A stretch of DNA of 64,000 nt from contig CAVQYV010000003.1 of NCBI GenBank assembly GCA_963718295.1, positions 434,001 through 498,000 on the forward strand. The letters run 5' to 3'. Positions 7,040 to 61,916 of this stretch are shown here, piece after piece; within the stretch, counting starts at the first letter, position 1; each line of letters opens with the position of its first letter. The notes under the pieces were generated by a model that had not been told where the DNA came from, did no database searches, and saw nothing but the letters and a program-made list of their open reading frames with translations. This DNA is from CAVQYV01 sp963718295 [NCBI: uncultured Methylomirabilota bacterium]. Lineage in GTDB: Bacteria; Methylomirabilota; Methylomirabilia; CAVQYV01. The position numbers and the translations under genes were made by a program.

Positions 7040-9451
7040 ATGAAACCGATCCGCTGCAAATTGGCAACTCTCATCTGGGGCACCCTGCTGTTGATGGCGG
7101 GCCCCGCCGTAACTCAGACCACCCCGGCCCAAGAGCCAGAGGAAGCCGACCGAACCCTCTCTCCCTATTTCTTGGTAAAGAGCGAGGATGCAGAGGTGGA
7201 CGCGCTCCCTCTGAAATCGACCTCTGCCCAAGTGAATGTGGCAGGCGTGATCGCCGATGTGGTGGTCACCCAGGTCTATCAGAATGAGGGCAAGAGGACG
7301 CTGGAGGCGATCTACGTCTTCCCTGGTTCCACCCGGGCTGCAGTCTATGGAATGAAAATGACCATTGGCGAAAGAACCATCGTCGCCGAGATCAAGGAGC
7401 GCGAGCGGGCGAGGCGGGAATACGAACAGGCCAGGCAGGAGGGCAGGAGCGCTTCCCTCTTGGAGCAGCAGCGTCCCAATGTATTTCAGATGAATGTGGC
7501 CAACATATTGCCAGGGGACACCATCAAGGTGGAGTTGAGATATACCGAGCTATTGGTACCGATGGGTGGGATCTATGAGTTTGTCTATCCTACCGTGGTC
7601 GGACCCCGATACTCCAATCAACCCGCCGCGGCGGCCCCGCCCTCGGAGACGTTCGTGAGCCTCAGTCGAACGATGTGGGTACAAAATCCTTACCTGCGCC
7701 AGGGGGAGCCTCCCACCTATTCGTTCCACCTCAGCGCCAACCTAACAGCCGGCCTCCCCATTTCCGAGATCACCTGCCCGTCCCACAAGGCAAGTATCCA
7801 CTATGGCCCCTCCTCCGCTTCCGTAACGCTCCATCCTTCCGAAAAATATGGAGGCAATCGCGATTTCATCCTCAAATATCGCCTGGCAGGCGGCAAGATC
7901 CAGTCTGGGATCCTCCTGTATGAGGGGGAGCGCGAGAAGTTCTTCTTGCTGATGATCCAGCCGCCCCGCCGGATCACGGCCAGTCAGATCCCACCCCGCG
8001 AATATATCTTCATCGTGGATGTCTCGGGATCGATGCATGGCTTCCCGCTGGAGATCTCCAAGAAACTATTGAAGGATTTGATCGGGAATCTCCGGCCCAC
8101 GGACAGGTTCAATGTGTTGCTCTTCGCCGGCGGATCCTCCCTCATGTCCGAACGATCCCTTCCCGCCACCCCTGAGAACATCGCCCGAGCCATTCAGGTG
8201 ATCGAGAACCAGCAGGGTGGAGGGGGCACCGAGCTCTTGCCGGCCCTGAAGCGAGCCCTCGCCTTGCCGAAGATGGAAGGGACCTCCCGCACCATGATCA
8301 TCGCCACCGATGGTTACGTGACCGTAGAGGAGGAGGCCTTCGACCTGATCCGGGATCATCTGGGCGATGCCAACATGTTTGCCTTCGGCATCGGATCTGC
8401 GGTGAACCGGCTCCTCATCGAGGGGATGGCCCGGGTGGGAATGGGAGAGCCCTTCATCATCACCAAGCCCGAAGGCGCGGGCGCCCAGGCAAATCGATTC
8501 CGAGAGATGATTCAGTCGCCAGCGCTGACTCACATCCGGGTGGATTTCGCGGGTTTTGGGGTCTACGAGGTGGAGCCACCGAGCCTTCCCGATGTGTTGG
8601 CAGAGCGCCCGGTCATCGTCTTCGGCAAGTGGCGGGGAAGACCCCAGGGCGAGATCATACTGCGAGGATTGACCGGAGGCCATCCCTACCAGGAAAAGAT
8701 CGAGGTAAGAGGGGAAAAGTCACTCCCTGCCAACTCGGCGCTCCGCTACCTGTGGGCCCGGCATCGCATTGCGGTATTGTCCGATTACAATCACCTGCGC
8801 CCCGATGATAAGAGGGTCAAGGAGGTCACCCGACTGGGCCTGAGCTACAACCTCCTGACCGCTTACACCTCCTTTGTCGCCATCGACACCCAAGTGCGAC
8901 TCGTGGATGGGAAGCCCGTGACCGTCAAGCAGCCCCTCCCCTTGCCGGAGGGCGTCTCCGATTATGCGGTGGGAGGGGAAGGGATGCATACAAAGAGCTT
9001 GCGCGCCCTTGCCCCGAGCATGGCCCTCCGAGGCTCCATCTCCGCCGATCAATCCCTGGCCGCTCAAGGCGCCCGGGAGGAGAATAAGGAGAGAGACAAG
9101 AAGGAGCAGGAGGCCTCCAAGCCAGCCACCCTGCGGGTAGGAAAGATCACGATCCAGGGAGGTTTGTCCAAGGAAGGGGTGGAAAAGGCCATCAAACAAC
9201 AAGTCAACTCGATGGAATCTTGCTTCCTCGAGGCCTGGAAGGAGAAACCGAATCTAACGGGTAAGTTGGTCTTCCTGCTCGCCATCGACGCCGAGGGACA
9301 GGTCGCTCGGGTCCAGGTATCGCAAAAAGAGAGCGAGCTACGGGATCCGGACCTGGAGCAATGCCTCATGCGACAGCTCAAGCAGATACGATTCCCTGCA
9401 CCCTCCAGCGGCAGTCAGGCAACCCTTGTCGTCTCCTTAATCTGGAAGTAA
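7040..9451 (+). CDS. Exported VIT and von Willebrand A domain protein with AgmX/PglI-like C-terminus
   Basis: The 803-residue protein starts with a signal peptide ending near AGPAVTQ. Residues about 45-180 form a VIT domain (STSAQVNVAGVIADVVVTQV, then EAIYVFPGSTRAAVYGMKM). A VWA domain follows, with the MIDAS motif DVSGSMHG near residue 326 and a conserved TDG (ATDGYVTVEE). The last 100 residues (INSMESCFLEAW-like VNSMESCFLEAWKEKPNLTG and VRFPAPSSG-like ending) resemble the AgmX/PglI/TonB C-terminal domain found in deltaproteobacterial envelope proteins. The architecture suggests an envelope adhesion or sensing protein that spans towards the outer membrane; function is inferred. Strong Shine-Dalgarno at 7026-7036. 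Confidence 0.88.
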   Translation: MKPIRCKLATLIWGTLLLMAGPAVTQTTPAQEPEEADRTLSPYFLVKSEDAEVDALPLKSTSAQVNVAGVIADVVVTQVYQNEGKRTLEAIYVFPGSTRAAVYGMKMTIGERTIVAEIKERERARREYEQARQEGRSASLLEQQRPNVFQMNVANILPGDTIKVELRYTELLVPMGGIYEFVYPTVVGPRYSNQPAAAAPPSETFVSLSRTMWVQNPYLRQGEPPTYSFHLSANLTAGLPISEITCPSHKASIHYGPSSASVTLHPSEKYGGNRDFILKYRLAGGKIQSGILLYEGEREKFFLLMIQPPRRITASQIPPREYIFIVDVSGSMHGFPLEISKKLLKDLIGNLRPTDRFNVLLFAGGSSLMSERSLPATPENIARAIQVIENQQGGGGTELLPALKRALALPKMEGTSRTMIIATDGYVTVEEEAFDLIRDHLGDANMFAFGIGSAVNRLLIEGMARVGMGEPFIITKPEGAGAQANRFREMIQSPALTHIRVDFAGFGVYEVEPPSLPDVLAERPVIVFGKWRGRPQGEIILRGLTGGHPYQEKIEVRGEKSLPANSALRYLWARHRIAVLSDYNHLRPDDKRVKEVTRLGLSYNLLTAYTSFVAIDTQVRLVDGKPVTVKQPLPLPEGVSDYAVGGEGMHTKSLRALAPSMALRGSISADQSLAAQGAREENKERDKKEQEASKPATLRVGKITIQGGLSKEGVEKAIKQQVNSMESCFLEAWKEKPNLTGKLVFLLAIDAEGQVARVQVSQKESELRDPDLEQCLMRQLKQIRFPAPSSGSQATLVVSLIWK

Positions 9452-9486
9452 TCCCCCCGCCACGGCGCCGGCTGTCTTTTTTGATC

Positions 9487-9516
9487 CGGAGGCGGCCGGC
9501 GCCTCCGCCTTTCTTT
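9487..9516 (+). terminator. Probable terminator after the VIT/VWA gene
   Basis: GGAGGCG at 9488-9494 pairs with CGCCTCC at 9500-9506 across a five-base loop, and is followed by a T-rich GCCTTTCTTTCCT. A larger competing stem (GGCGCCGGC with GCCGGCGCC) overlaps it. It lies 36 bases behind the stop codon. Confidence 0.55.
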
Positions 9517-9766
9517 CCTGCCGTCTCCTCCGCCTTCATGGCAACCCACATCGAGGCCTCATCTCAACCGCACCCGGCATACCGATATTTTCACCTCAGT
9601 AAGATTCGGGGAATCCTTCGTCCACCATTCTCATCTATTCGTATCGAGAAACGGTATTGATCTCGGACCGGTTTTCTGCTTTATTCTGCTTCAGTCCACC
9701 ATGGCACTTTGCACTTCGTGCGATCCAAAGTGCAATCTCACCCGTAAGCGAAAGGAGGCAACAGGA
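9517..9766. other. Leader region of the selenoprotein gene
   Basis: No gene seen. AAAGGAGG at 9751-9758 lies eight bases before the ATG at 9767 and is what fixes that start. Confidence 0.5.
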
Positions 9767-10345
9767 ATGGCAAAGCAAATTCCTTGGGAGACCAACATCG
9801 AAGTGGCCTTAGACCGGGGCGCCAAAGAACAGAAGCCGGTCTTCGTCGATTTCTGGTTCGATGGCTGAATTGGCTGCAAATTTATGAATACGGATACGTA
9901 TTCACAGGATGTGGTGGTGGATTTTCTGCTGCAACATTTCATCCCTGTTCGAAGCCAATGTTTCTTCGACCACTTCACGGCGATGATGCGGCGCTATCAG
10001 GTGAAGTGGACTCCAACCTTCCTGGTCTTAGATCAGGATGGGCGGGAGCACCATCGGGTCGTCGGATTCCTTCACCCGGAGGATTTCATGGCCCAGCTCC
10101 AATTGGGGAAGGCAAAGCTTCTTTACGATCAGGATCGGCTGGATAAGGCTGCTTCCGAGTTTCAGACCGTGATCGATCGGTTCCCCAAGACCGCTGCTGC
10201 CGAAGAGGCGACCTTCCTCCTCGGCGTCACGGGCTACAAGCGGACCCATCAGGCAGGCGAGCTCAAGAAGGGGTGGGAGAAGCTTTCCCAGGACTATCCC
10301 CAGAGCGATTGGACCCGTAGGGCCAAGCCCTATTCGGCATTGTAG
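9767..10345 (+). CDS. Thioredoxin-fold TPR protein, probable selenoprotein (UGA = Sec34)
   Basis: An ATG at 9767, eight bases behind AAAGGAGG, opens a frame that runs to the stop at 10343-10345 with one in-frame TGA at 9866-9868. Read through, the active site is VFVDFWFDG-Sec-IGCKFM, where the TGA sits exactly at the first cysteine of a thioredoxin CxxC. The cis-proline segment KWTPTFLVL follows, and residues about 115-190 are TPR-like helices (AKLLYDQDRLDKAASEFQTV). Frame and protein similarity continue on both sides of the TGA, which argues against a real stop. A SECIS-like hairpin lies at 9885-9904. The predicted 192-residue protein would be a UxxC oxidoreductase, probably cytoplasmic as no signal peptide is seen. 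Standard gene callers would report only 9884-10345. The sel genes themselves are not in the window. Confidence 0.85.
9885..9904 (+). promoter_or_regulatory. Bacterial SECIS-like hairpin
   Basis: TGAATACG (9885-9892) pairs perfectly with CGTATTCA (9897-9904), giving eight base pairs and a GATA tetraloop at 9893-9896. Twenty-four bases separate the TGA from the loop, within the usual 16-37 range for bacterial SECIS elements, and a G is the first base of the loop as the model expects. It lies inside the coding sequence, directly downstream of the UGA. Confidence 0.8.
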
Positions 10346-10474
10346 CTCTGCCTGGGTCGGCCGTTCTGGAGGGCCGCCAAAGCCGTTGCCAGGCAGACCG
10401 GAGGATCTGGGAGGAGACAGCCAAGTCCTCGAGCCCTTCGGGACCTTTGATATGGGGAAAGGCTGGGGGGCATC

Positions 10475-12499
10475 TCATATCGATTCCCGGGCCACAGTGA
10501 TCTCTTCGATGCGCAGGCTGATCTCCTCCCACTCTCCGTACAAGAGGCGTATGCGATCCTCCAATTCCTTCCTTTCTTCCAATACCTCCCGCGCCTTATC
10601 CCCGTTTCGATAGATTTCTGACCGGGTGAGCATGCCCATCACTTCTTGCAGCCGCTCTTCCCGGGAGTGAATCTCCTCCTCGATCCCGCTCAGCCGTTTC
10701 TTCAGCGGGAGGAGGATCCGACTTCGCCTCTGCCTCTCTTCTGCCTCCTGCCTCTTCTCTTCTTTGCTCTTTCTCCGGCCAGAGGCCGTCCCTGAATTCG
10801 TAATAAGGGGCTTCTCCTCCTGGGTAGACCGCTCGCCCCCATCTCCACCCATAATCTCCCTGGCCCCCCTTTCCTCTTCTTGGACCTTCTCCCGATAGTA
10901 GTCATAATTCCCCAGGAACTCCCTCAACCTACCCCCTTTGACCTCCACTACTTTGTTGGCAATCCGGTTGATGAAGTACCGGTCATGGGAAATGAAGATC
11001 ATGGTCCCTTCCCACTGCTCCAGGGCCTCCTCCAGGATCTCACGGGCATCCAGATCGAGGTGGTTGGTGGGCTCATCCAGGAGCAGGAAATTCACGGGCT
11101 TCAGAAGCATGCGGGCCAGGGCCAGGCGGCTTTTCTCTCCTCCAGAGAGGACTGAAACCTTTTTCTCCACATCCTCCCCCGAAAAGAGAAAGGCACCCAG
11201 GATGGTCCGAAGCCGAGATTGCATTTCGAAATCCGCCACCTCCGCCAGCTCCTCCAGGACGGTGTGGCCCGAGTGAAGCGCCTCCAACTGGTGCTGGGCA
11301 TAATAGAAAAGGGAGACGCTGGGGCCCAGGATGCGCTTCCCCTTCTCAAAAGGTAGAATCCCCGCCAATATCTTGACCAGGGTGCTCTTCCCCGCCCCAT
11401 TAGGCCCCACCAATGCGATGCGATCCTCTCGAAGCACCTGGAAATCGACGCCGGAATAGACCATCTTTTCTGCGTAGGACTTGTGAACTCCGATGAGTTG
11501 GGCCACATGAAGCCCGCTGCGAGGGACTGGGGGAAATTGGAAATGGAGGGTGCGGGTTGTCCGACGCTCGATCGCGATCCTGGGCATCTTTTCCAACATC
11601 TTGATTCGACTCTGGACCTGGGTTGCCTTGGTATTTTTGGCCCGGAAGCGCTCGATAAACCGCTCCACCTGCTCAATCCGACGCTCCTGGTTGCGCAGGG
11701 TCGCCTCCTGCAGCTTTCGCCGGTGCTCCCGGTTCATCCGATACTGATCATAATCCCCCTGATAGAGAGTCAGGGTCCCCGATTCCAGTTCGGCGATCCT
11801 TTTGACCATCCGGTTTAGCAGGTAGCGGTCGTGAGAAATGAGCACAAAGGTCCCCTCGTATCCAGAAAGGAACTCCTCCAGCCAGAGGACCGACTCCAGA
11901 TCCAGGTGGTTGGTGGGCTCATCCAGGAGCAAATAGTCCGGTCGGGTCAGGAGGAGCCGTGCCAGGGCCACCCGCATCTGCCATCCACCGGAGAGGGATT
12001 GGAGAGGGCACTCAACCTCCTGCACAGCAAAGCCCAGTCCGCTCAGGATGGACCGAGCCTGAGACTCCAACCCGTAGCCACCTTTCGTCTCATATTCGTG
12101 CTGCATCCTCCCGTGCCGCTCCAGAAGGGTTTTCCATTCCTGGGCATCCTCCCGGATCTTGTTTAGGCGTCGGGCTTCTTCGATCTCCTCATGCAAGCCC
12201 TCCAATTCCTTTCCCGTACGATAAATTTCCTCGAACCCACCCATCACGAAGTCCAGCACCCGATCATCCCCCAGGGTCTCCACCTCTTGGGGCAGATAGC
12301 CCAGCCGAATCCCCCGGGAACGATGAATCTCGCCCTCATCGGCCCCCTCCAGTCCCAGGATCATGCGCAACAGGGTGGTCTTGCCTGCGCCATTGGGACC
12401 CACCAGACCGAGGCGTTCTCCCTTCCTGAGCTGCCAGGAGAGGCTGCGGAAGAGGAACTTGCCCCCAAACTGCTTGGATATCGATCTCAGATCAATCAT
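10475..12499 (-). CDS. ABC-F family ATPase
   Basis: The 674-residue soluble protein has two ABC cassettes without membrane segments. The first shows GPNGAGKTT near residue 34, LSGGWQMRVALARLLL and LLLDEPTNHLD. The second shows GPNGAGKST near residue 370, LSGGEKSRLALARMLL and again DEPTNHLD. Between them is the charged ABC-F linker (EHRRKLQEATLRNQERRIEQ), and the C-terminus is a long coiled coil as in Uup/YheS-type members. Such proteins act on the ribosome rather than as transporters; the exact subgroup (Uup or YheS-like) cannot be fixed by eye. It is convergent with the selenoprotein gene. Confidence 0.93.
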   Translation of the reverse strand: MIDLRSISKQFGGKFLFRSLSWQLRKGERLGLVGPNGAGKTTLLRMILGLEGADEGEIHRSRGIRLGYLPQEVETLGDDRVLDFVMGGFEEIYRTGKELEGLHEEIEEARRLNKIREDAQEWKTLLERHGRMQHEYETKGGYGLESQARSILSGLGFAVQEVECPLQSLSGGWQMRVALARLLLTRPDYLLLDEPTNHLDLESVLWLEEFLSGYEGTFVLISHDRYLLNRMVKRIAELESGTLTLYQGDYDQYRMNREHRRKLQEATLRNQERRIEQVERFIERFRAKNTKATQVQSRIKMLEKMPRIAIERRTTRTLHFQFPPVPRSGLHVAQLIGVHKSYAEKMVYSGVDFQVLREDRIALVGPNGAGKSTLVKILAGILPFEKGKRILGPSVSLFYYAQHQLEALHSGHTVLEELAEVADFEMQSRLRTILGAFLFSGEDVEKKVSVLSGGEKSRLALARMLLKPVNFLLLDEPTNHLDLDAREILEEALEQWEGTMIFISHDRYFINRIANKVVEVKGGRLREFLGNYDYYREKVQEEERGAREIMGGDGGERSTQEEKPLITNSGTASGRRKSKEEKRQEAEERQRRSRILLPLKKRLSGIEEEIHSREERLQEVMGMLTRSEIYRNGDKAREVLEERKELEDRIRLLYGEWEEISLRIEEITVARESI

Positions 12500-47248: not shown

Positions 47249-47497
47249 TTATGCCCCTGGCACCGGGCAGGCGTTGGAGAGGGTGAGGACCCAGACGACC
47301 TGCCCTTTCTCCGCCGATCGGCGGAAGGCCTCCTGCAAGGCGGAGAATACCTGGTCTTCTTCTCCTAAAACCAGGCTGCTCATGATTCCCGTCTGCACCG
47401 TCAGGCCGTGATCCTTCAACGCCGACACGGCCTCCTCGATGGCCGGGCTGAGTCGCTCCTGTCGCAGGGGATAGAGGCTAAATTGCGCGCTGATCGC
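47249..47497 (-). CDS. Thiamine-binding (MTH1187/YkoF-like) protein, copy 1
   Basis: The 82-residue protein starts at MAISAQFSLYPLRQERLSPA, with GAGAAAGGAGAAAG-like purines before it, and continues to VVWVLTLSNACPVPG. This is the COG0011 family of small ferredoxin-fold proteins, some of which bind thiamine or its precursors. The left breakpoint of the duplication falls in the last codon: here the protein ends GA, in copy 2 it ends GV. Role is unproven. Confidence 0.78.
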   Translation of the reverse strand, partial: AISAQFSLYPLRQERLSPAIEEAVSALKDHGLTVQTGIMSSLVLGEEDQVFSALQEAFRRSAEKGQVVWVLTLSNACPVPGA

Positions 47498-47533
47498 CAT
47501 TTCTTTCTCCTTTCTCCACTCATACAAACAAGA

Positions 47534-47567
47534 AAGCCCGAGGACAGAGTTGCCCTCGGGCTTTTTT
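47534..47567. terminator. Bidirectional terminator, copy 1
   Basis: AAGCCCGAGG and CCTCGGGCTT form a ten-base-pair stem, followed by TTTTTT on the plus strand and TTTCTTG on the minus strand. On the minus strand it lies between the peroxiredoxin stop and the thiamine-binding-like gene; on the plus strand it could end the YdjM transcript. Confidence 0.8.
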
Positions 47568-47586
47568 CATCCATCCATCTCCCTCC

Positions 47587-48361
47587 TCAATGAGGAGCGA
47601 TCTGGGAGAGAGGGAGCTTTTTGGTGCAGAAGAACCAGTCGTAGCATTTCACATCTTTACCCGGGGCCTTCATGCGCTCCATGGCGGCACCGCAGGATCC
47701 AGGAGGCGGCACGATCACATCATCGCCCGGGCTGCCAGTCGGCCGGGGTTGCGACCTTGTGTACATCGGAGGTCTGCATGGCGATCAGGAGGCGCTTGAT
47801 CTCCTGGAAGTTCCGGCCATTGGAGAGGGGGTAGTAAAGCAGAGCCCGGATCTTGCTCTCCGGATCGATGAAGAAGACCGCCCGTACCGCCTTGGTGTCA
47901 CTGGCCGAGGGCTGGAGCATCCCGTATTTCTTGGCCACGTCCATCTTCAGGTCTGCAATGACGGGGAATAGCACCTGGACATTCTTCATGCCCTTGTACT
48001 CGACCCTCTCCTGGATGGTCCGCAGCCAGGCGATGTGGCTGAAGACGCTATCGATGGAGAGACCGATCAGCTTGCAGTTCAGGGCCTCGAATTCCTTCTC
48101 CATGGTGGCAAAGGTCATGAACTCCGTGGTGCATACCGGGGTGAAGTCCGCAGGATGACTGAACATGATCACCCATTTACCCTTGTAATCCGCGGGGAAG
48201 TTTATCATCCCCTGGGTGGTCTCCGCGGTAAAGGCGGGCGCCTCCTCGCCGATGAGGGGGATGCGGGGTGCATTTGATTCATCAGCGAATACCGAGGAAG
48301 AAAGAACAAAGGTGAGGCTCAAGGCCGCCAATAACATGGCAATGGATTGACTTCTCTTCAT
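47587..48361 (-). CDS. Exported peroxiredoxin, copy 1, needs a +1 frameshift for its C-terminus
   Basis: The ATG at 48361 (after AAGGAG) opens a signal peptide (SIAMLLAALSLTFVLSSSVF) and a peroxiredoxin of the Prx6-like group, with the peroxidatic cysteine in HPADFTPVCTTEFM near residue 70. In the first frame translation stops at a TGA (47720-47722) after TPADWQPGR. The expected C-terminus, DDVIVPPPGSCGAAMERMKA then KDVKCYDWFFCTKKLPLSQI, continues intact in the +1 frame to a stop at 47587. The shift lies at CAG-CCC-G-GGC (CCC at 47729-47731). The second copy has the same shift. It would reduce peroxides in the periplasm. Confidence 0.85.
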
Positions 48362-49014
48362 ATACCGATCTCCTTTTCCCAAGATCTGTCCTACGTGCAA
48401 TCCGACGCCGAATCATGCCCCTCCAAGTATCGCGATAAACACCTCCCTTCTCAAATTCGCCCAACTTGTACAGCGGATTTCGCCGGCATCAATGACAACG
48501 ATGCCTGACCTCGAAAATGGATTCACGATTTTTTGGGAAATGACGAGATCCCTTTTGCAACATTCCTGTCCTTTCCTCACCCCTCGCCCGCCTCAAGATG
48601 GTTGGAGGATTCACGATGGTCATATTCCAAAGATCATCCTCACTCAAGCATCTCTGCGGTCGCCATTTTGGTGAAAGCAAGTATCAGGATGGAACGGAAG
48701 GTTCCAAGGAATCGAACACGAGACTACCTTGACTGGCGAGAGAATACTTACGGGCACGGCTTGCGATTGACAGTGAGCTGTTTGGTTCCCTGAGTACTTG
48801 TTATGCGTGCCTTGCGGGCGAATCCTTCGTCTTGGAAGGTTAGATTCATCGAAGGAACCTGAAAAGGGGAAAGGTGATCAGTCTTCTCCCCTTTTCTCAT
48901 TATTGATCCGGTCCCCGAACCTTTTGCCGAATCCAGGGATAGAAAAATCGAGGGAAATCGAATATAAGGAATTGGGCCCGTGTGGGCCCAGCAAAGAGCA
49001 AAGGGAGGAAAAGT
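48362..49014. other. Intergenic region of duplication copy 1
   Basis: No gene is supported. The stretch is kept nearly unchanged in copy 2. It contains a ten-base-pair stem (GAAAAGGGGA with TCCCCTTTTC, about 48859-48896) and a smaller TGGGCCC/GGGCCCA hairpin just before the Sir2 start, which may act on the Sir2 transcript. Confidence 0.6.
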
Positions 49015-49839
49015 TTGGAAGGGGAAATGGTCCGTCAAGCCGCCTTGAAGATTGCTCGCGGCCAGGGCATGGTTGCCTTTACCGGCGCGGGGATCTCGGA
49101 AGAGAGCGGGATACCCACCTTTCGCGGGAAGGGAGGGCTCTGGGACCACTATCCTCCCGAGCGCTTTGCCAATATGGGTGGCTTGATCGCCGAATTTCTC
49201 CTGCGCCCAAAGAAGGTTGCGGGATTTCTGCGGGAGATCCTGGAATCCTGCCTGGATGCAAAGCCGAATCCCGCCCATCTGGCCCTGGCGCAATGGGAAG
49301 CAGAAGGGAGGCTGCGGGCCGTCATCACCCAGAATATCGATACCCTTCATGAGCGGGCCGGCACCCAGAAAGTGATCAAGCTGCATGGTAGCATCGACCG
49401 GCTCCGCTGCACGGATTGTGGGTTCAAGCAGAATTTCGATGAAGCCCGGCTTCGGCGATGGGTCGAGGCACTATCAGCGGAGGGGATCGGTCGGAGGCAA
49501 CTCTGGCATGCTCTCAAGCAGATACTGTCTCCCTGCCCATACTGCGGCGGGAAACGCCGGCCGGACGTGGTCCTTTTCGGCGACCTCCTCCCTCAGGATG
49601 CCTGGGCAGAGGCCCAGCAGGCGGCCTCCCTTTGCCGGGTCTTCCTGGTGATCGGCACCTCCGGGCTGGTCCTTCCGGCTGCCGAGATCCCGCTGATGGC
49701 CAAGAGATCGGGTGCGACCCTGATCGAGATCAACCCCGAGCCCACCTCCCTGACCGCCCATGCCGATCTCTTTCTCGAAGGAAAAGCAGGCCAGGTCATG
49801 CAGGAACTGGCCAGCCAGGTAACGTCGATCAAGCAATAG
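49015..49839 (+). CDS. Sir2-family NAD-dependent protein deacylase, copy 1
   Basis: About 275 residues with the full Sir2 set: MVAFTGAGISEESGIPTFRG near the N-terminus for NAD, ITQNIDTLHERAGTQKVIKL with the catalytic histidine in KLHGS, zinc cysteines in RCTDCGFK and CPYCGGKRRPDVVLFGD, and LVIGTSGLVLPAAEIPLMAK. It removes acyl groups from lysines using NAD. I choose the TTG at 49015 because AAGGGAGG lies six bases before it; the ATG at 49027 has its purines too close. Copy 2 is at 52355. A sirtuin next to a peroxiredoxin may reflect stress control, but that is inference. Confidence 0.9.
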   Translation: MEGEMVRQAALKIARGQGMVAFTGAGISEESGIPTFRGKGGLWDHYPPERFANMGGLIAEFLLRPKKVAGFLREILESCLDAKPNPAHLALAQWEAEGRLRAVITQNIDTLHERAGTQKVIKLHGSIDRLRCTDCGFKQNFDEARLRRWVEALSAEGIGRRQLWHALKQILSPCPYCGGKRRPDVVLFGDLLPQDAWAEAQQAASLCRVFLVIGTSGLVLPAAEIPLMAKRSGATLIEINPEPTSLTAHADLFLEGKAGQVMQELASQVTSIKQ

Positions 49840-49904
49840 GCGGGGGCACCCAGTTAAGAGAGAAAGCAGTGTGTTTGGAGCAGATGTTGGCATGAAAAAA
49901 AGAT

Positions 49905-50000
49905 GGAGGGTCACCACGGAGACACAGGGAGCACAGAGAGATTTGCATAAAAAAGATACCCCTCCGTGAACTCTGTGACTCTGTGGTCAGAGTAGGTTTT
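49905..50000. repeat. Dispersed CACAGAG-type inverted repeat
   Basis: ACCACGGAGACACAGGGAGC and, after 40 bases, CTCCGTGAACTCTGTGACTC form long loose inverted arms. Similar sequences recur at 53250-53330 and partly at 45450. This is the widespread 'cacagag' interspersed repeat seen in many bacterial genomes. Confidence 0.6.
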
Positions 50001-50109
50001 ATCAGTGCCCCCTGACTTGAGTAGCTCTAAGTCGCCGATTATGCCCGTCGAGGGAGGGGGCGCCGTCCCACTGGAAGCCCAGATGAAACCAGAGGAACTG
50101 AGGAGGCGC

Positions 50110-50590: not shown

Positions 50591-50837
50591 CCCCTGGCAC
50601 CGGGCAGGCGTTGGAGAGGGTGAGGACCCAGACGACCTGCCCTTTCTCCGCCGATCGGCGGAAGGCCTCCTGCAAGGCGGAGAATACCTGGTCTTCTTCT
50701 CCTAAAACCAGGCTGCTCATGATTCCCGTCTGCACCGTCAGGCCGTGATCCTTCAACACCGACACGGCCTCCTCGATGGCCGGGCTGAGTCGCTCCTGTC
50801 GCAGGGGATAGAGGCTGAATTGCGCGCTGATTGCCAT
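50586..50837 (-). CDS. Thiamine-binding (MTH1187/YkoF-like) protein, copy 2
   Basis: Almost identical to the gene at 47249-47497, with AVSVLKDHG for AVSALKDHG and a final GV in place of GA. The last residue and the stop codon come from the flanking spacer, because the duplication junction lies in the last codon. The start follows AAAGGAGG. Confidence 0.77.
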   Translation of the reverse strand: MAISAQFSLYPLRQERLSPAIEEAVSVLKDHGLTVQTGIMSSLVLGEEDQVFSALQEAFRRSAEKGQVVWVLTLSNACPVPGV

Positions 50838-50870
50838 TTCTTCCTCCTTTCTGCGCTCGCGCAAACAAGA

Positions 50871-50904
50871 AAGCCCGAGGACAGAGTTGCCCTCGGGCTT
50901 TTTT
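50871..50904. terminator. Bidirectional terminator, copy 2
   Basis: Same ten-base-pair stem AAGCCCGAGG/CCTCGGGCTT with T6 on the plus strand as at 47534. On the minus strand it follows the second peroxiredoxin gene. Confidence 0.78.
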
Positions 50905-50923
50905 CATCCATCCATCTCCCTCC

Positions 50924-51701
50924 TCAATGAGGAGCGATCTGGGAGAGAGGGAGCCTTTTGGTGCAGAAGAACCAGTCGTAGCATTTCACATCTTTACCCG
51001 GGGCCTTCATGCGGTCCATGGCCGCACCGCAGGATCCGGGAGGCGGCACGATCACATCATCGCCCGGGCTGCCAGTCGGCCGGGGTTGCGACCTTGTGTA
51101 CATCCGATGTCTGCATGGCGACCAGGAGGCGCTTGATCTCCTTGAAGTTCCGGCCATTGGAGAGGGGGTAATAGAGCAGAGCCCGAATCTTGCTGTTCGG
51201 ATCGATGAAGAAGACCGCTCGGACCGCCTTGGTGTCACTGGCCGAGGGCTGGAGCATCCCGTATTTCTTGGCCACGTCCATCTTCAGGTCTGCAATGACG
51301 GGGAATAGCACCTGGACATTCTTCATGCCCTTGTACTCGACCCTCTCCTGGATGGTCCGCAGCCAGGCGATGTGGCTGAAGACGCTATCGATGGAGAGAC
51401 CGATCAGCTTGCAGTTCAAAGCCTCGAATTCCTTCTCCATGGTGGCAAAGGTCATGAACTCCGTGGTGCATACCGGGGTGAAGTCCGCAGGATGACTGAA
51501 CATGATCACCCATTTACCCTTGTAATCCGCGGGGAAGTTTATCATCCCCTGGGTGGTCTCCGCGGTAAAGGCGGGCGCCTCCTCGCCGATGAGGGGGATG
51601 CGGGGTGCACTTGCTTCATCATTAGCGAATACCGAGGAAGAAAGAACAAAGGTGAGGCTCAAGGCCGCCAATAACATGGCAATAGATTGACTTCTCTTCA
51701 T
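50924..51701 (-). CDS. Exported peroxiredoxin, copy 2, same +1 frameshift
   Basis: Near-identical to copy 1: signal peptide, PVCTTEFM active site, and an in-frame TGA at 51057 after TPADWQPGR. The C-terminus DDVIVPPPGSCGAAMDRMKA and KDVKCYDWFFCTKRLPLSQI again lies in the +1 frame to 50924, with the shift at CAG-CCC-G (CCC at 51066-51068). In the shifted part the two copies differ at four bases: two silent in the +1 frame, plus Glu/Asp and Lys/Arg changes. That is what selection on the +1 frame would leave, though the numbers are small. Start at 51701 after AAGGAG. Confidence 0.85.
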
Positions 51702-52354
51702 ATTCCAATCTCCTTTTCCCAAGATCTGTCCTACCTGCAATCCGACGCCGAATCATGCCCCTCCAAGTATCGCGATAAACACCTCCCTTCTCAAATTCGC
51801 CCAACTTGTACAGCGGATTTCGCCGCCATCGATTACAACGATGCCTGAATTCGCAATTGGATTCACGATTGTTTGGGAAATGACGAGATCCCTTTTGCAA
51901 CATTCCTGTCCTTCCCTCACCCCTCGCCCGCCTCAAGATGGTTGGAGGATTCACGATGGTCATATTCCAAAGATCATCCTCACTCAAGCATCTCTGCGGT
52001 CGCCATTTTGGTGAAAGCGAGTATCAGGATGGAACGGAAGGTTCCAAGGAATCGAACACGAGACTACCTTGACTGGCGAGAGAATACTTACGGGCACGGC
52101 TTGCGATTGGCAGTGAGCTGTTTGGTTCCCTGAGTACTTGTGATGCGTGCCTTGCGGGCGAGTGCTTCGTCTTGGAAGGTTAGATTCATCGAAGGAACCT
52201 GAAAAGGGGAAAGGTGATCAGTCTTCTCCCCTTTTCTCATTATTGATCCGGTCCCCGAACCTTTTGCCGAATCCAGGGATAGAAAAATCGAGGGAAATCG
52301 AATATAAGGAATTGGGCCCGTGTGGGCCCAGCAAAGAGCAAAGGGAAGAAAAGC
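51702..52354. other. Intergenic region of duplication copy 2
   Basis: Counterpart of 48362-49014, with the same hairpins and no supported gene. Confidence 0.55.
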
Positions 52355-53350
52355 TTGGAAGGGGAAATGGTCCGTCAAGCCGCCTTGAAGATCGCTCGCG
52401 GTCGGGAAATGGTTGCCTTTACCGGCGCGGGGATCTCGGAAGAGAGCGGGATACCCACCTTTCGCGGGGAGGGAGGGCTCTGGGACCGCTATCCTCCTGA
52501 GCGCTTTGCCAATATGGGTGGCTTGATCGCCGAATTTCTCCTGCGCCCGGAGAAGGTTGCGGGATTTCTGCGGGAGATCCTGGAATCCTGCCTGGATGCA
52601 AAACCGAATCCCGCTCATCGGGCCCTGGCGCAGTGGGAAAGCCACGGTATCCTGCGGGCGACCATCACCCAGAATATCGATACCCTTCACGAGCGGGCCG
52701 GCACCCAGAAGGTAATCAAACTGCATGGCAGCATCGACCGGCTCCGCTGCACGGATTGTGGGTTCAAGCAGAATTTCGATGAAGCCCGGCTTCGGCGATG
52801 GGTCGGGACACTATCAGCGGAGGGGATCGGTCGGAGGCAACTGTTGCGTGCTCTCAAGCAGATACTGTCTCCCTGCCCTTACTGCGGGGGGAAACGCCGG
52901 CCGGACGTGGTCCTCTTCGGAGACCTCCTGCCCCAGGATGCCTGGACAGAGGCCCAGCAGGCGGCCTCCCTTTGCCGGGTCTTCCTGGTGATCGGCACCT
53001 CCGGGCTGGTCCTTCCGGCTGCCGAGATCCCGCTGATGGCCAAGAGATCGGGTGCGACCCTGATCGAGATCAACCCCGAGCCCACCTCGCTGACTCCCCA
53101 TGCCGATCTCTTTTCTGGGAGGCAAGGCGGGAGAGGTCATGCAGGAGCTGGCCATCCAGGTAACGTCGATCAAGCACTAGGCGGGGGCCCAAGTTATGAG
53201 AGGAAGCAGTGTGTTTGGAACAGATGTTGGCATAAAAAAAGATGGAGGGTCACCAGACACAGGGGGCACAGAGAGATTTGCATAAAAAAGATACCCCTCC
53301 GTAAACTCTGTGGTGGTGAGAGCAGGATTTATAACTGGCCCCTGACTTGA
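52355..53350 (+). CDS. Sir2-family deacylase, copy 2, C-terminus frameshifted
   Basis: Same sirtuin as at 49015, with all NAD, catalytic histidine and zinc-cysteine motifs intact. After SLTPHADLF one extra T in TTTT (53111-53114) shifts the frame. The normal end (LGGKAGEVMQELAIQVTSIK H) is still readable in the next frame to a stop at 53178-53180, but the actual frame runs on to 53350 through unrelated sequence, giving 56 foreign residues. The catalytic core should still fold. The ribosome binding site is weaker (AAGGGAAG) than in copy 1. Confidence 0.8.
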   Translation: MEGEMVRQAALKIARGREMVAFTGAGISEESGIPTFRGEGGLWDRYPPERFANMGGLIAEFLLRPEKVAGFLREILESCLDAKPNPAHRALAQWESHGILRATITQNIDTLHERAGTQKVIKLHGSIDRLRCTDCGFKQNFDEARLRRWVGTLSAEGIGRRQLLRALKQILSPCPYCGGKRRPDVVLFGDLLPQDAWTEAQQAASLCRVFLVIGTSGLVLPAAEIPLMAKRSGATLIEINPEPTSLTPHADLFSGRQGGRGHAGAGHPGNVDQALGGGPSYERKQCVWNRCWHKKRWRVTRHRGHREICIKKIPLRKLCGGESRIYNWPLT

Positions 53351-53440
53351 GTAGCTCTAAGTCGCCGATTATGCCCGTCGAGGGAGGGGGCGCGTCCCAC
53401 TGGAAGCCCAGATGAAACCAGAGGAACTGAGGAGGCGCAT

Positions 53441-59696: not shown

Positions 59697-61088
59697 TTAC
59701 TGACTGTCTGCCATGTGGCCCCGTGTCCTAGAGAGGCTCAGTTTTTTCATTTTTCGCCACAGGGTGATGCGGCTGTAGCCCAGCTCCTGGGCTGCCTGCA
59801 CACGGGACCCTCCATGCCTGCTCAAGGCATCCTGGATGAGGACTGCCTCTGCCTCCTCCAGAGGCTTCAATTCGGGTCTTCTACTCCCTGCTCCCCTGTG
59901 GATGGAGAGTAGATCCGGGGGCAGATGAGGGATGTGGATCAGTCCCCCTCGACAGAGCACAAAGCTATGTTCAATAATGTTTTGGAGCTCCCGCACATTC
60001 CCTGGATAATCATAGTTCATGAGCAACTCCATCACTTCCTCATCCACCCCGGCAATCTCTTTCCCTTTACTGAAATTGAATTGGCGTATGAAATGCTCCA
60101 CCAGCAAAGGGATGTCCTCACGCCTTCCGGACAGCGGAGGAAGCGTGATCTTCACCACATTGAGGCGATAGTACAGGTCCTCCCGGAATTGGCCGAGCTT
60201 CACCATCTCATAAAGGTCGCGGTGGGTGGCCGCCAGCATCCTCACATCCGCCTTGATGGTGAAAGTCGCCCCTAAGGGTTCATACTCCCGCTCCTGGAGG
60301 ACGCGCAGCAGTTTGACCTGGATTGAAGGGGACAGATCGCCGATCTCATCCAGGAAGAGGGTCCCCCCCTCTGCCAGGGCGAAACGACCCGGTTTATCCT
60401 TCCGCGCGTCGGTGAAGGCACCTTTTACGTATCCGAATAGCTCCGATTCCAGGAGGGTCTCAGGGACTGCGGCGCAGCTGACTTTGACGTAGGGCTTCCT
60501 CTTGCGCCGGCTCAGATTGTGGAGAGCCCGCGCGAAGAGCTCCTTCCCTGAGCCGGTGGGGCCCTGTATCAAGACGGTGCTGTCGCTCTCTGCGATGTCG
60601 GGCAGGATCTGAAAGAGATCCAATATCTTGTGGTTCTTGCTGACGATATCGGAGTATGAATACTGCTTGGAAATTTCCTTCTTCAAAGACTCCAGGGCGG
60701 AGAGGTCGCGAAAGGTCTCCACCGCTCCCAGCAACTTGGCTTTGTCATCTCTCAACACCGAGGTGGAAATGCTGATTGGGACCGCTCTGCCCTCTTTCGT
60801 CAGGATCTCCGCCCGCAGATGCGTCACGGGCCTTCCTGTGCGGAGGCTCTTCTTCAGTCCGCACTCCGTCTGGCATAGATTGGCCCGAAAGACCTCGAAA
60901 CAGTACTGGCCAATCGCCTCCCGACGTGCAAATCCGGTGATCTTCTCCGCTGCCTGATTGAAGGAGGTGATGCGACCCTCGGCATCGGTGGTGAACACCC
61001 CGTCAGCGATGCTCTCCAAGATGAGGTGGAAGAAGGGATCGGCCTCGTCTCTATTCTTCAACTTCCCGCCCCTCAACGCAGGTTTCAC
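59697..61088 (-). CDS. PAS-domain sigma-54-dependent transcriptional activator
   Basis: A 463-residue NtrC-type activator. Residues 15-130 form a PAS domain (LILESIADGVFTTDAEGRIT) with three cysteines in EVFRANLCQTECGLKK. The AAA+ domain shows IQGPTGSGKELFARALHNLS (Walker A), the sigma-54 loop as GAFTDA where most have GAFTGA, LAEGGTLFLDEIGDLSPSIQ (Walker B) and NYDYPGNVRELQNIIEHSFV. The C-terminus is a Fis-like helix-turn-helix (QAAQELGYSRITLWRKMKKL). It ends close to the palindromes and sigma-54 promoter of the NifX-like gene, so it likely controls that operon. The PAS cysteines hint at redox or metal sensing. Confidence 0.93.
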   Translation of the reverse strand: MKPALRGGKLKNRDEADPFFHLILESIADGVFTTDAEGRITSFNQAAEKITGFARREAIGQYCFEVFRANLCQTECGLKKSLRTGRPVTHLRAEILTKEGRAVPISISTSVLRDDKAKLLGAVETFRDLSALESLKKEISKQYSYSDIVSKNHKILDLFQILPDIAESDSTVLIQGPTGSGKELFARALHNLSRRKRKPYVKVSCAAVPETLLESELFGYVKGAFTDARKDKPGRFALAEGGTLFLDEIGDLSPSIQVKLLRVLQEREYEPLGATFTIKADVRMLAATHRDLYEMVKLGQFREDLYYRLNVVKITLPPLSGRREDIPLLVEHFIRQFNFSKGKEIAGVDEEVMELLMNYDYPGNVRELQNIIEHSFVLCRGGLIHIPHLPPDLLSIHRGAGSRRPELKPLEEAEAVLIQDALSRHGGSRVQAAQELGYSRITLWRKMKKLSLSRTRGHMADSQ

Positions 61089-61916
61089 TCTCTGATCTCC
61101 AAGATATCGCCCACATTCAGGGGACGAACCCGGGAGCCAAATGCGTGATAGAGCTGAGCGGATGCGACAAACCCGATGCAGTGGCTCAAAGCCAATTGAG
61201 GGATGTCCATCTTGCTGAGGGCCTCGATGGTCCAGGAGATACGCTCCGAAGAGGCTCCCAGCAGGTGAGTCCCCCCGATCACTGCCTGGATCCGATCGCG
61301 CCCGGTAAGCTCCCGGGCATAATCCAGGGTATTGATCAATCCCGCATGGCAGCAGCCCAGGATCACCACCAGTCCCTGCTCGTCTTCCACGATGAGGGCT
61401 TGGTCATCTGGAAACAGGTCGGAGGAGAACCCATCTCCCTGGGGGACCAGAAAATCCTCCGTAGGGACCTCGATGAGGTGGCGTCGGGAGATGGGGCCGG
61501 TCAGAGACATGCCCTTTGCCGATCTCGACCGAAGAGGAATGGAAATGCAGGAGGGCCCCCATTTTCTCTAAATCCTCCGCCTTCCAGGGAGGACCAATCC
61601 CTATGATTTCTCCTTGACGGGTCCTTTTGAACCGAGGAGATGCGGCCTCGGGATGCAGAAAGACCTCTGGCCGGATCTGGGAGAGGACCTGGGGGAGTCC
61701 TCCCGTGTGATCGTAATGGCCATGGCTGATGACGACCTTTTTGATCTTCTCCCAATCCACTTCCAAGGCCCGGGCGTTATGAAGGATCGCCAGGCCCTGC
61801 CCCGCGTCAAAAAGAACTGTCTCGCCCCCACCTTCGAGCAGGAGAGAAAAGCCATGCTCTCCCAGATGGCCCCGGGAGGGGGCCGTATCTTCCACCAGGA
61901 CTTTGATGCGCAGCAT
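61085..61916 (-). pseudogene. Metallo-beta-lactamase-fold hydrolase (RFA-P-synthase-like), frame broken
   Basis: The first frame from 61916 encodes MLRIKVLVEDTAPSRGHLGE, the metal motif VVISHGHYDHTGGLPQVLSQ, and runs to SSSVEIGKG. The second, from 61510, goes on MSLTGPISRRHLIEVPTEDF and VVILGCCHAGLINTLDYARE, ending overlapping the activator start by four bases. One extra base near 61511 (AAA-GGG-C-ATG) separates the halves. Joined, they make a typical 277-residue protein of the group named for 7,8-dihydropterin-6-methyl-4-(beta-D-ribofuranosyl)-aminobenzene-5'-phosphate synthase. It neighbours the sigma-54 activator in many anaerobes. Confidence 0.8.

Follow-up and report, generated by a model that had tools for sequence, protein, structure and literature searches.

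Does the in-frame TGA at codon 34 of a short gene from an uncultured Methylomirabilota bacterium (CAVQYV01 sp963718295) end the protein, or does it encode selenocysteine (Sec)? The gene lies on a 64,000-nucleotide stretch of contig CAVQYV010000003.1 (positions 434,001 to 498,000), the whole of which was analysed and is called the window here. When read through the TGA, it forms a single frame of 192 residues with the context WFDG-U-IGC. A first-pass annotation, made by a model from the letters alone, had proposed a selenoprotein with a Sec-Ile-Gly-Cys thioredoxin site fused to tetratricopeptide repeat (TPR) helices. We regard it as virtually certain that the gene encodes a selenoprotein, because the TGA is conserved, a hairpin downstream of it is kept beyond what the protein needs, and the TGA form of the gene accompanies the selenocysteine machinery. 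The decisive support for this prediction is comparative: the same TGA is found in 50 further full-length relatives. The best explanation overall, a 192-residue selenoprotein in which UGA 34 is decoded as Sec and which joins a thioredoxin domain to a TPR tail, is highly probable. The features are listed in Table 1.

Table 1. Features of the selenoprotein gene, with positions in the window
Feature	Position	Strand	Basis
Shine-Dalgarno sequence AGGAGG, 8 nt upstream of ATG 9767-9769	9753..9758	+	sequence reading
Selenoprotein gene, 192 codons and TAG, thioredoxin-like domain fused to TPR-like helices	9767..10345	+	read-through frame, 50 full-length relatives with one TGA
DsbD-gamma-like thioredoxin domain, residues 19-110	9821..10096	+	PF13098, 3.6e-12; PDB relatives DsbD gamma and 2kuc
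TGA codon as selenocysteine, first position of UIGC (CxxC)	9866..9868	+	frame reading, relatives
SECIS-like hairpin UGAAUACG[GAUA]CGUAUUCA, loop G 9893, 24 nt 3' of TGA	9885..9904	+	pairing, minimum free energy, conservation
TPR-like helical region, about residues 109-188: TPR_6-like repeat 113-142, two more helices, cap	10091..10330	+	Pfam, TIGR02795, model, fold matches

The reading frame agrees with the first-pass annotation, which had described a strong ribosome binding site and a TGA at the first cysteine of a thioredoxin CxxC; the TGA sits 99 nt 3' of the start codon, and the stop codon TAG occupies 10343-10345. In the list of open reading frames (ORFs) under translation table 11, only the piece 9884-10345 appears in this frame, so that an annotation pipeline would truncate the selenoprotein gene, as had been foreseen. 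The standard code cuts these genes at the active site, which would therefore be missing from annotation.

Whole-genome searches gave the 50 full-length relatives with an in-frame TGA, its position always being the first in CxxC, at 25-46% identity to the window protein (13, 10, and 27 from the three sets of phyla searched). The motif is UIGC in 11 Sec genes, the window counted, and UGGC in 10, and eleven other versions of UxxC occur. The first-pass annotation had suggested looking for homologues with cysteine at the TGA position, and six full-length relatives have it (L100-L103, L105, and L174; 29-31% identity to the window), L174 being a second copy in a genome (G177) that also carries a TGA copy. 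Full-length relatives are, by definition, those having the tail. There are also short forms, six with TGA (L107-L109, L182, L183, and L175, which ends at a contig edge and was counted as short) and four with Cys (L177-L180). Left out before the counts were L167 (the same gene as L150), L176 (a short form run beyond its TAG), and L181, a DsbD-like frame with CIPC and a TGA near its own end; genome G298, which has selB and tRNA-Sec, was excluded from the Sec genomes because its row L181 was dropped. The second copy of G759 was not separately extracted.

The relatives come from several lines of search. HisF loci (65 loci in many phyla, the best 73% identical) served to reach genomes, and 39 of these genomes were searched. 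One of them, G018 (Pseudomonadota bacterium CSMAG_150), holds one full-length relative with 36-37% identity and the TGA likewise at U-I-G-C; the other 38 have no full-length relative, 24 of them giving partial matches, and the phylum of G018 yielded none in its 8 other genomes. In the phylum of G002 (Thermodesulfovibrionales; presumably Nitrospirota), a two-row profile matched 27 of 295 genomes at 1e-15, and 12 full-length places carry TGA. With an eight-row profile, matches came from 9 of 251 genomes in the phylum of G034 (Dehalococcoidia; presumably Chloroflexota), with TGA at 10 of 10 places, and from 21 of 199 genomes in the phylum of G036, with TGA at 29 of 29. The family is thus spread over three sampled phyla and one small further phylum. 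No relative of the window protein was found in genome_contigs or viral_contigs, and none of the 42 matching plasmid records covers 80% of the query. In the phylum of G026, 2 of 64 genomes gave domain matches alone and no full-length relative, and the searches in the phyla of G032 (0 of 398 genomes) and G001 (0 of 84) (1e-20) were empty without a known positive and are hence uninformative.

An unrooted tree of 67 rows can be explained by three switches between Sec and Cys, to which it assigns no direction. The window groups with five relatives from the phylum of G002 (L094-L098; 100/99), which is no proof of organismal kinship. The short Cys forms L177-L180, with the motif CEAC, branch among the short Sec forms, which looks like a loss of Sec in the sequences compared, and our preferred reading is that Sec is the ancestral state of the family.

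Some relatives deserve separate description. The short thioredoxin-only proteins L107, L108, L109, L182, and L183 have UGAC or UEAC and a hairpin at the equivalent place. Genome G821 holds three Sec copies of the thioredoxin-TPR gene (L146, L166, and L171), and G702, G723, G759, G775, G806, and G655 hold two each. The Sec relative L149 (G791) has an extra in-frame TAA inside the thioredoxin domain and may be a broken gene or an assembly error; it was kept in the Sec count.

An eight-base-pair hairpin with a G-first loop had been noted 24 bases downstream of the TGA, and it is present as described, with 8 Watson-Crick pairs, the loop GAUA, and a start 16 nt 3' of the TGA. Its minimum free energy is -14.5 kcal/mol (z -3.09 against 200 shuffles). 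A hairpin of this kind (at least 8 Watson-Crick pairs, a loop of 3-6 with G among its first two nucleotides, 16-37 nt downstream) follows 6 of the 2061 TGA trinucleotides that the two window strands contain, the one at 9866 counted. The bacterial selenocysteine insertion sequence (SECIS) model described in PMC13188914 requires 4-16 bp in the stem and 3-9 nt in the loop, with G among the first two loop nucleotides, a distance of 16-37 nt to the UGA, and a minimum free energy of -7.5 or lower. The window hairpin satisfies this model, supporting, by these published criteria, the earlier statement that it follows bacterial SECIS rules.

The pairing was compared across the family with a six-pair core at a fixed distance from the TGA, using 2000 shuffles in which the protein was kept and synonymous codons were drawn. 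Among 32 full-length Sec members with less than 60% mutual identity (an earlier set had held 19 Sec representatives below 70% identity, short forms included), 172 of 192 core positions are paired versus 128.4 +/- 5.3 in the shuffles, none of which was as high. The core is fully paired in 19 members versus 2.4 expected, again reached by 0 of 2000 shuffles, and leaving out the window gives 166 of 186 paired versus 125.1 (0 of 2000). The ten Cys relatives show no excess, with 29 of 60 positions paired versus 26.7, a value equalled or exceeded by 485 of 2000 shuffles. Of 51 Sec genes, 50 have the loop G and 44 carry an NCG codon at the base of the 3' arm of the hairpin, directly before the next aromatic or Cys codon. 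In an alignment of 27 sequences, the covariation score is 0.298 versus 0.176 and the number of cells with changes on both sides is 15 versus 4.7, neither reached in 500 shuffles. The comparison supports a hairpin conserved beyond protein-coding need.

The machinery for selenocysteine was examined in the genomes from which a TGA form had been extracted, 17 of them in a first set and 30 in a second, selB being called by TIGR00475 over its cut-off and tRNA-Sec by RF01852 at E <= 1e-10. By these calls, selB is present in 16 of 17 and 26 of 30 genomes (42 of 47 together) and in none of the five Cys-only genomes, and tRNA-Sec is present in 45 of 47 and again in none of the five. G572 has a tRNA-Sec of just 59 bits, and G258 and G282 miss the E <= 1e-10 line but have selB. 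Taking both markers, selB and/or a strong tRNA-Sec is found in 47 of 47 Sec genomes and in 0 of 5 Cys-only genomes. RF01852 gives matches in all 14 control genomes, passing the Rfam gathering score in 5; the stricter line was chosen because this score is passed in control and Cys-only genomes, where the matches presumably represent other long-armed tRNAs.

The protein sequence continues as a member of its family past the TGA, as the first-pass annotation had stated: PF13098 (Thioredoxin_2) matches residues 19-110 of the read-through protein with 47 bits against a cut-off of 27 (3.6e-12), and the match spans the TGA. The proposed fusion of thioredoxin to TPR helices stands in its first part, refined to the DsbD-gamma type. 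For the second part, residues 113-142 of the window protein reach 20.2 bits with TPR_6, under the Pfam cut-off of 26.3, whereas a Pfam TPR cut-off is passed by the relatives L066 (30.3), L090 (28.2), and L148 (28.3). The nearest NCBIfam models are DsbD and TsoB for the first part and YbgF for the tail, all far under cut-off, and none of the NCBIfam models exceeds its cut-off with the window protein. The YbgF-type model TIGR02795 matches the tail in 8 of 8 members, and the tail residues W182, R185, A186, and Y189 are invariant in all 8 rows. A single-sequence AlphaFold model has a mean pLDDT (its confidence score) of 59; residues 111-180 are helical with block values of 74-87, and in this fair-confidence part the tail, from residue 104 onward, is predicted to comprise some five helices in total. 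A Foldseek search with this model gave zero matches at E 0.001 or better, while fold and PDB sequence matches show the tail to resemble the TPR chains of YbgF, CpoB, and BamD. Inspection by eye shows no signal peptide in the window protein, whose sequence thus points to a probable cytoplasmic location. In the relative L175 (G835), the frame 5' of the thioredoxin domain resembles a signal peptide; some members may therefore be exported and the location could vary within the family.

Several observations weigh against this account or reduce the force of its evidence. For the 27 aligned sequences, neither the number of pairs that vary on both sides (3 versus 2.1) nor that of pair types (8 versus 7.4) clearly exceeds the shuffles, and sliding the alignment by -2 columns gives 16 cells with both-side changes. 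The pairing test with the partner slid by -2 is also in excess (113 versus 95.5), with zero fully paired sequences. The published SECIS model is permissive, being passed by 51 of 51 Sec genes but also by 5 of 10 Cys genes, and L115-L117, from the phylum of G034, pair at only 2 of 6 core positions, an alternative hairpin lying a few bases earlier. As regards the machinery, selB is frequent in genomes without the family (27 of 49), and the association is therefore informative mainly through the Cys-only group, which consists of five genomes, four of them close kin in the tree; all the genomes compared may be incomplete. At the Rfam gathering score, 3 of these 5 genomes match RF01852 too (48.6-49.7 bits), and the machinery evidence as a whole comes from the genomes of relatives, not from the organism of the window. 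Because Sec members supplied the search profiles, Cys relatives may be under-sampled. Finally, the thioredoxin part of the single-sequence AlphaFold model is unreliable, and no conserved operon indicates the function.

The first-pass annotation had doubted that this is a standard selenoprotein family, which holds for the domain combination and not for the thioredoxin. An inventory of prokaryotic selenoproteins counts 119 families or subfamilies (PMC13188914); the combination of thioredoxin and TPR is named in none of those it describes, and the words "TPR" and "tetratricopeptide" are absent from its main text. Its nearest entry is the "Thiol:disulfide interchange protein" (PF13098, UxxC, WP_011366075.1), and the GOS survey lists a UxxC "Trx-like 2" (cd02953; PMC2398784); in our reading these are one family. 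The window protein shares the domain type and the UxxC motif, whereas a TPR tail is unmentioned in the text of either paper, the comparison being with the description of the family and not with the sequence of WP_011366075.1. Thioredoxin-TPR members are possibly already counted inside the PF13098 family without mention of the tail. A full-text literature search, with subscription papers and supplements outside its scope, showed no thioredoxin-TPR selenoprotein described in titles and abstract openings. The UxxC thioredoxin is a known kind of selenoprotein, and the TPR combination is the part not found named.

The closest parallel in domain plan is CnoX (YbbN), with an N-terminal thioredoxin, a C-terminal TPR part of two five-helix subdomains, and an SxxC or CxxC motif (PMC8129009). 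CnoX acts as a holdase that also shields the thiols of its clients (PMC8129009 and PMC6282202); in the accessible text, "selen" appears 0 times in the former paper and once in the latter, there within a substrate name. A chaperedoxin-like protein without a TPR domain, TFP2 of Leptospirillum, has also been described (PMC11241051). The window protein has the thioredoxin-then-TPR plan in common with CnoX, its own TPR match alone being under the Pfam cut-off, but it has just about five helices in total in the single-sequence model, and no CnoX chain (3QOU or 3QDN) is among its PDB sequence matches (E <= 1; E <= 1e-5), so that sequence homology is lacking by this measure. A weak fold match (rank 43, E 0.069) is 3qdn, a "putative thioredoxin protein from Salmonella", which we take to be YbbN. 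By sequence and by TPR size the window protein is not CnoX, though by analogy it could function similarly.

Other relatives cover single parts of the protein. The DsbD gamma domain is among the top PDB and NCBIfam sequence matches, but the 192 residues hold no membrane domain and NF001419 gives 48.7 bits versus a cut-off of 330. The rhodanese/DsbD fusion TsoB (NF045694) is also of selenoprotein type and has the DsbD-gamma-like part in common; its model, with 572 positions and the motif UxxxxU, gives 47.3 bits versus a cut-off of 805. YbgF and CpoB provide the best named matches for the tail (PDB IDs 6g5s and 2xev); they are periplasmic proteins without a thioredoxin domain.

In the mechanism that we propose, a ribosome at UGA codon 34 would meet the hairpin 16 nt downstream, where SelB, following the general bacterial mechanism, would bring Sec-tRNA-Sec and allow translation to continue to the TAG. 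The product would be a thioredoxin-fold protein, probably cytoplasmic, with a Sec-x-x-Cys site, presumably of the reductase type, and a short TPR tail. Its selenolate may attack client disulphides, sulphenic acids, or similar oxidation products, the second Cys may resolve the Se-S bond, and the TPR part may dock a client or a chaperone. This working mode would be akin to that of the chaperedoxin CnoX/YbbN, with selenium replacing sulphur. The role of a client-holding reductase, drawn from this analogy, is possible rather than probable. More doubtful, and put forward tentatively, is the wider idea of a widespread and mainly Sec-containing chaperedoxin family, in which the TPR part binds oxidation-damaged or unfolded clients and the Sec-x-x-Cys site reduces them, and which arose apart from CnoX from a DsbD-gamma-like thioredoxin and retained Sec through most of its known history.

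A serious possibility, if short of a probable one, is that the protein is an ordinary soluble reductase of the known PF13098/cd02953 UxxC selenoprotein family, whose TPR helices cap the structure and have no separate function. In its favour, the best-scoring entries in Pfam and PDB belong to the DsbD-gamma/Thioredoxin_2 type, UxxC is also the motif given for the known family, and tail-less short Sec forms exist in the phylum of G002 (L107-L109, L182, and L183). The tail is nevertheless retained, with several invariant residues, in 50 Sec and 6 Cys full-length relatives despite their divergence; this retention shows breadth and not necessity, since the full-length set is defined by the tail.

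Rather unlikely is a selenium-dependent peroxidase, or a reductant of one dedicated partner such as a peroxiredoxin, in place of a general client-holding reductase. Genes for Ni-containing superoxide dismutase, Hsp20, OsmC, DJ-1/PfpI, Usp, or a pyridine nucleotide-disulphide oxidoreductase adjoin single relatives, in cases picked by eye that give a hint of a link to oxidative stress, and two copies of a peroxiredoxin-like gene lie in the window (47720-48400 and 51057-51740, AhpC/TSA being shown for the first). These copies, however, are about 37 kb distant, and no partner recurs. Around 38 Sec loci, simple ORF picking gave 125 neighbouring proteins (up to two genes per side and up to 700 residues), of which 102 were classified, and no neighbour family exceeds 3 of the 102 (pirin, epimerase, and several TPR models, among the first 25 of 149 families). 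In L066 (1915-2367), a Ni-containing superoxide dismutase gene (PF09055, 7.3e-33) lies on the same strand directly 3' of the thioredoxin-TPR selenoprotein gene of G018.

It is very improbable that the gene is an ordinary CxxC thioredoxin gene in which TGC or TGT was turned into TGA by mutation or sequencing error, with translation of the second half beginning at ATG 9884 or absent altogether. Under table 11 the second half is intact, the gene is solitary, and the read support for the TGA of the contig is not visible; the identical placement of the TGA in the 50 diverged relatives and the conservation of the hairpin beyond protein requirement speak against it. A reassignment of TGA to Cys, Trp, or Gly in this organism, without selenium, would account for an in-frame TGA inside a conserved domain taken alone, but deserves next to no credence given that TGA closes 23 of the 42 window ORFs of at least 200 codons (chosen by length alone), that full-length relatives from five genomes lacking selB above its cut-off have Cys at the aligned position, as does L174, a second copy in a Sec genome, and that a SECIS-like hairpin accompanies the TGA.

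The solitary selenoprotein gene has a VIT/VWA protein gene upstream and, downstream, a convergent gene for an ATPase with two ABC domains, which we read as ABC-F type. A sigma-70 scan over 9400-10500 gave no promoter match. An inverted repeat, GCACTTTG ... CAAAGTGC, at 9704-9735, about 30 nt 5' of the start codon, is possibly an operator or leader hairpin. At gathering scores, Rfam has zero matches in the window, and tRNA-Sec is absent from it.

The read-through contexts of the main window ORFs, judged by eye without a domain search, revealed no other convincing Sec candidate. In the region 59697-61916 on the reverse strand, the ORF 61404-61916 looks by eye like the beginning of a metallo-beta-lactamase-fold protein and stops early at a TGA, beyond which the frame runs on uninterrupted into the next ORF; since the residues flanking the stop look non-coding, a frameshift seems a likelier cause than Sec. 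The window also contains a direct duplication of about 2.86 kb with 95.5% identity (47254-50109 and 50591-53438), each copy carrying an AhpC/TSA peroxiredoxin gene, which Pfam identified in the first, and what by eye is a gene for a Sir2-type deacetylase.

With the codon-34 TGA read as Sec, the gene adds a well-supported candidate family to the 119 of PMC13188914, or else a subfamily hidden within one of these. The extracted full-length thioredoxin-TPR relatives are mostly Sec proteins (50 of 56, with profiles built from Sec members). Their natural SECIS-like hairpin, sharply conserved across proteins of 25-46% identity to the window protein, offers material for work on SelB specificity, and the idea of a selenium-dependent chaperedoxin becomes directly testable.
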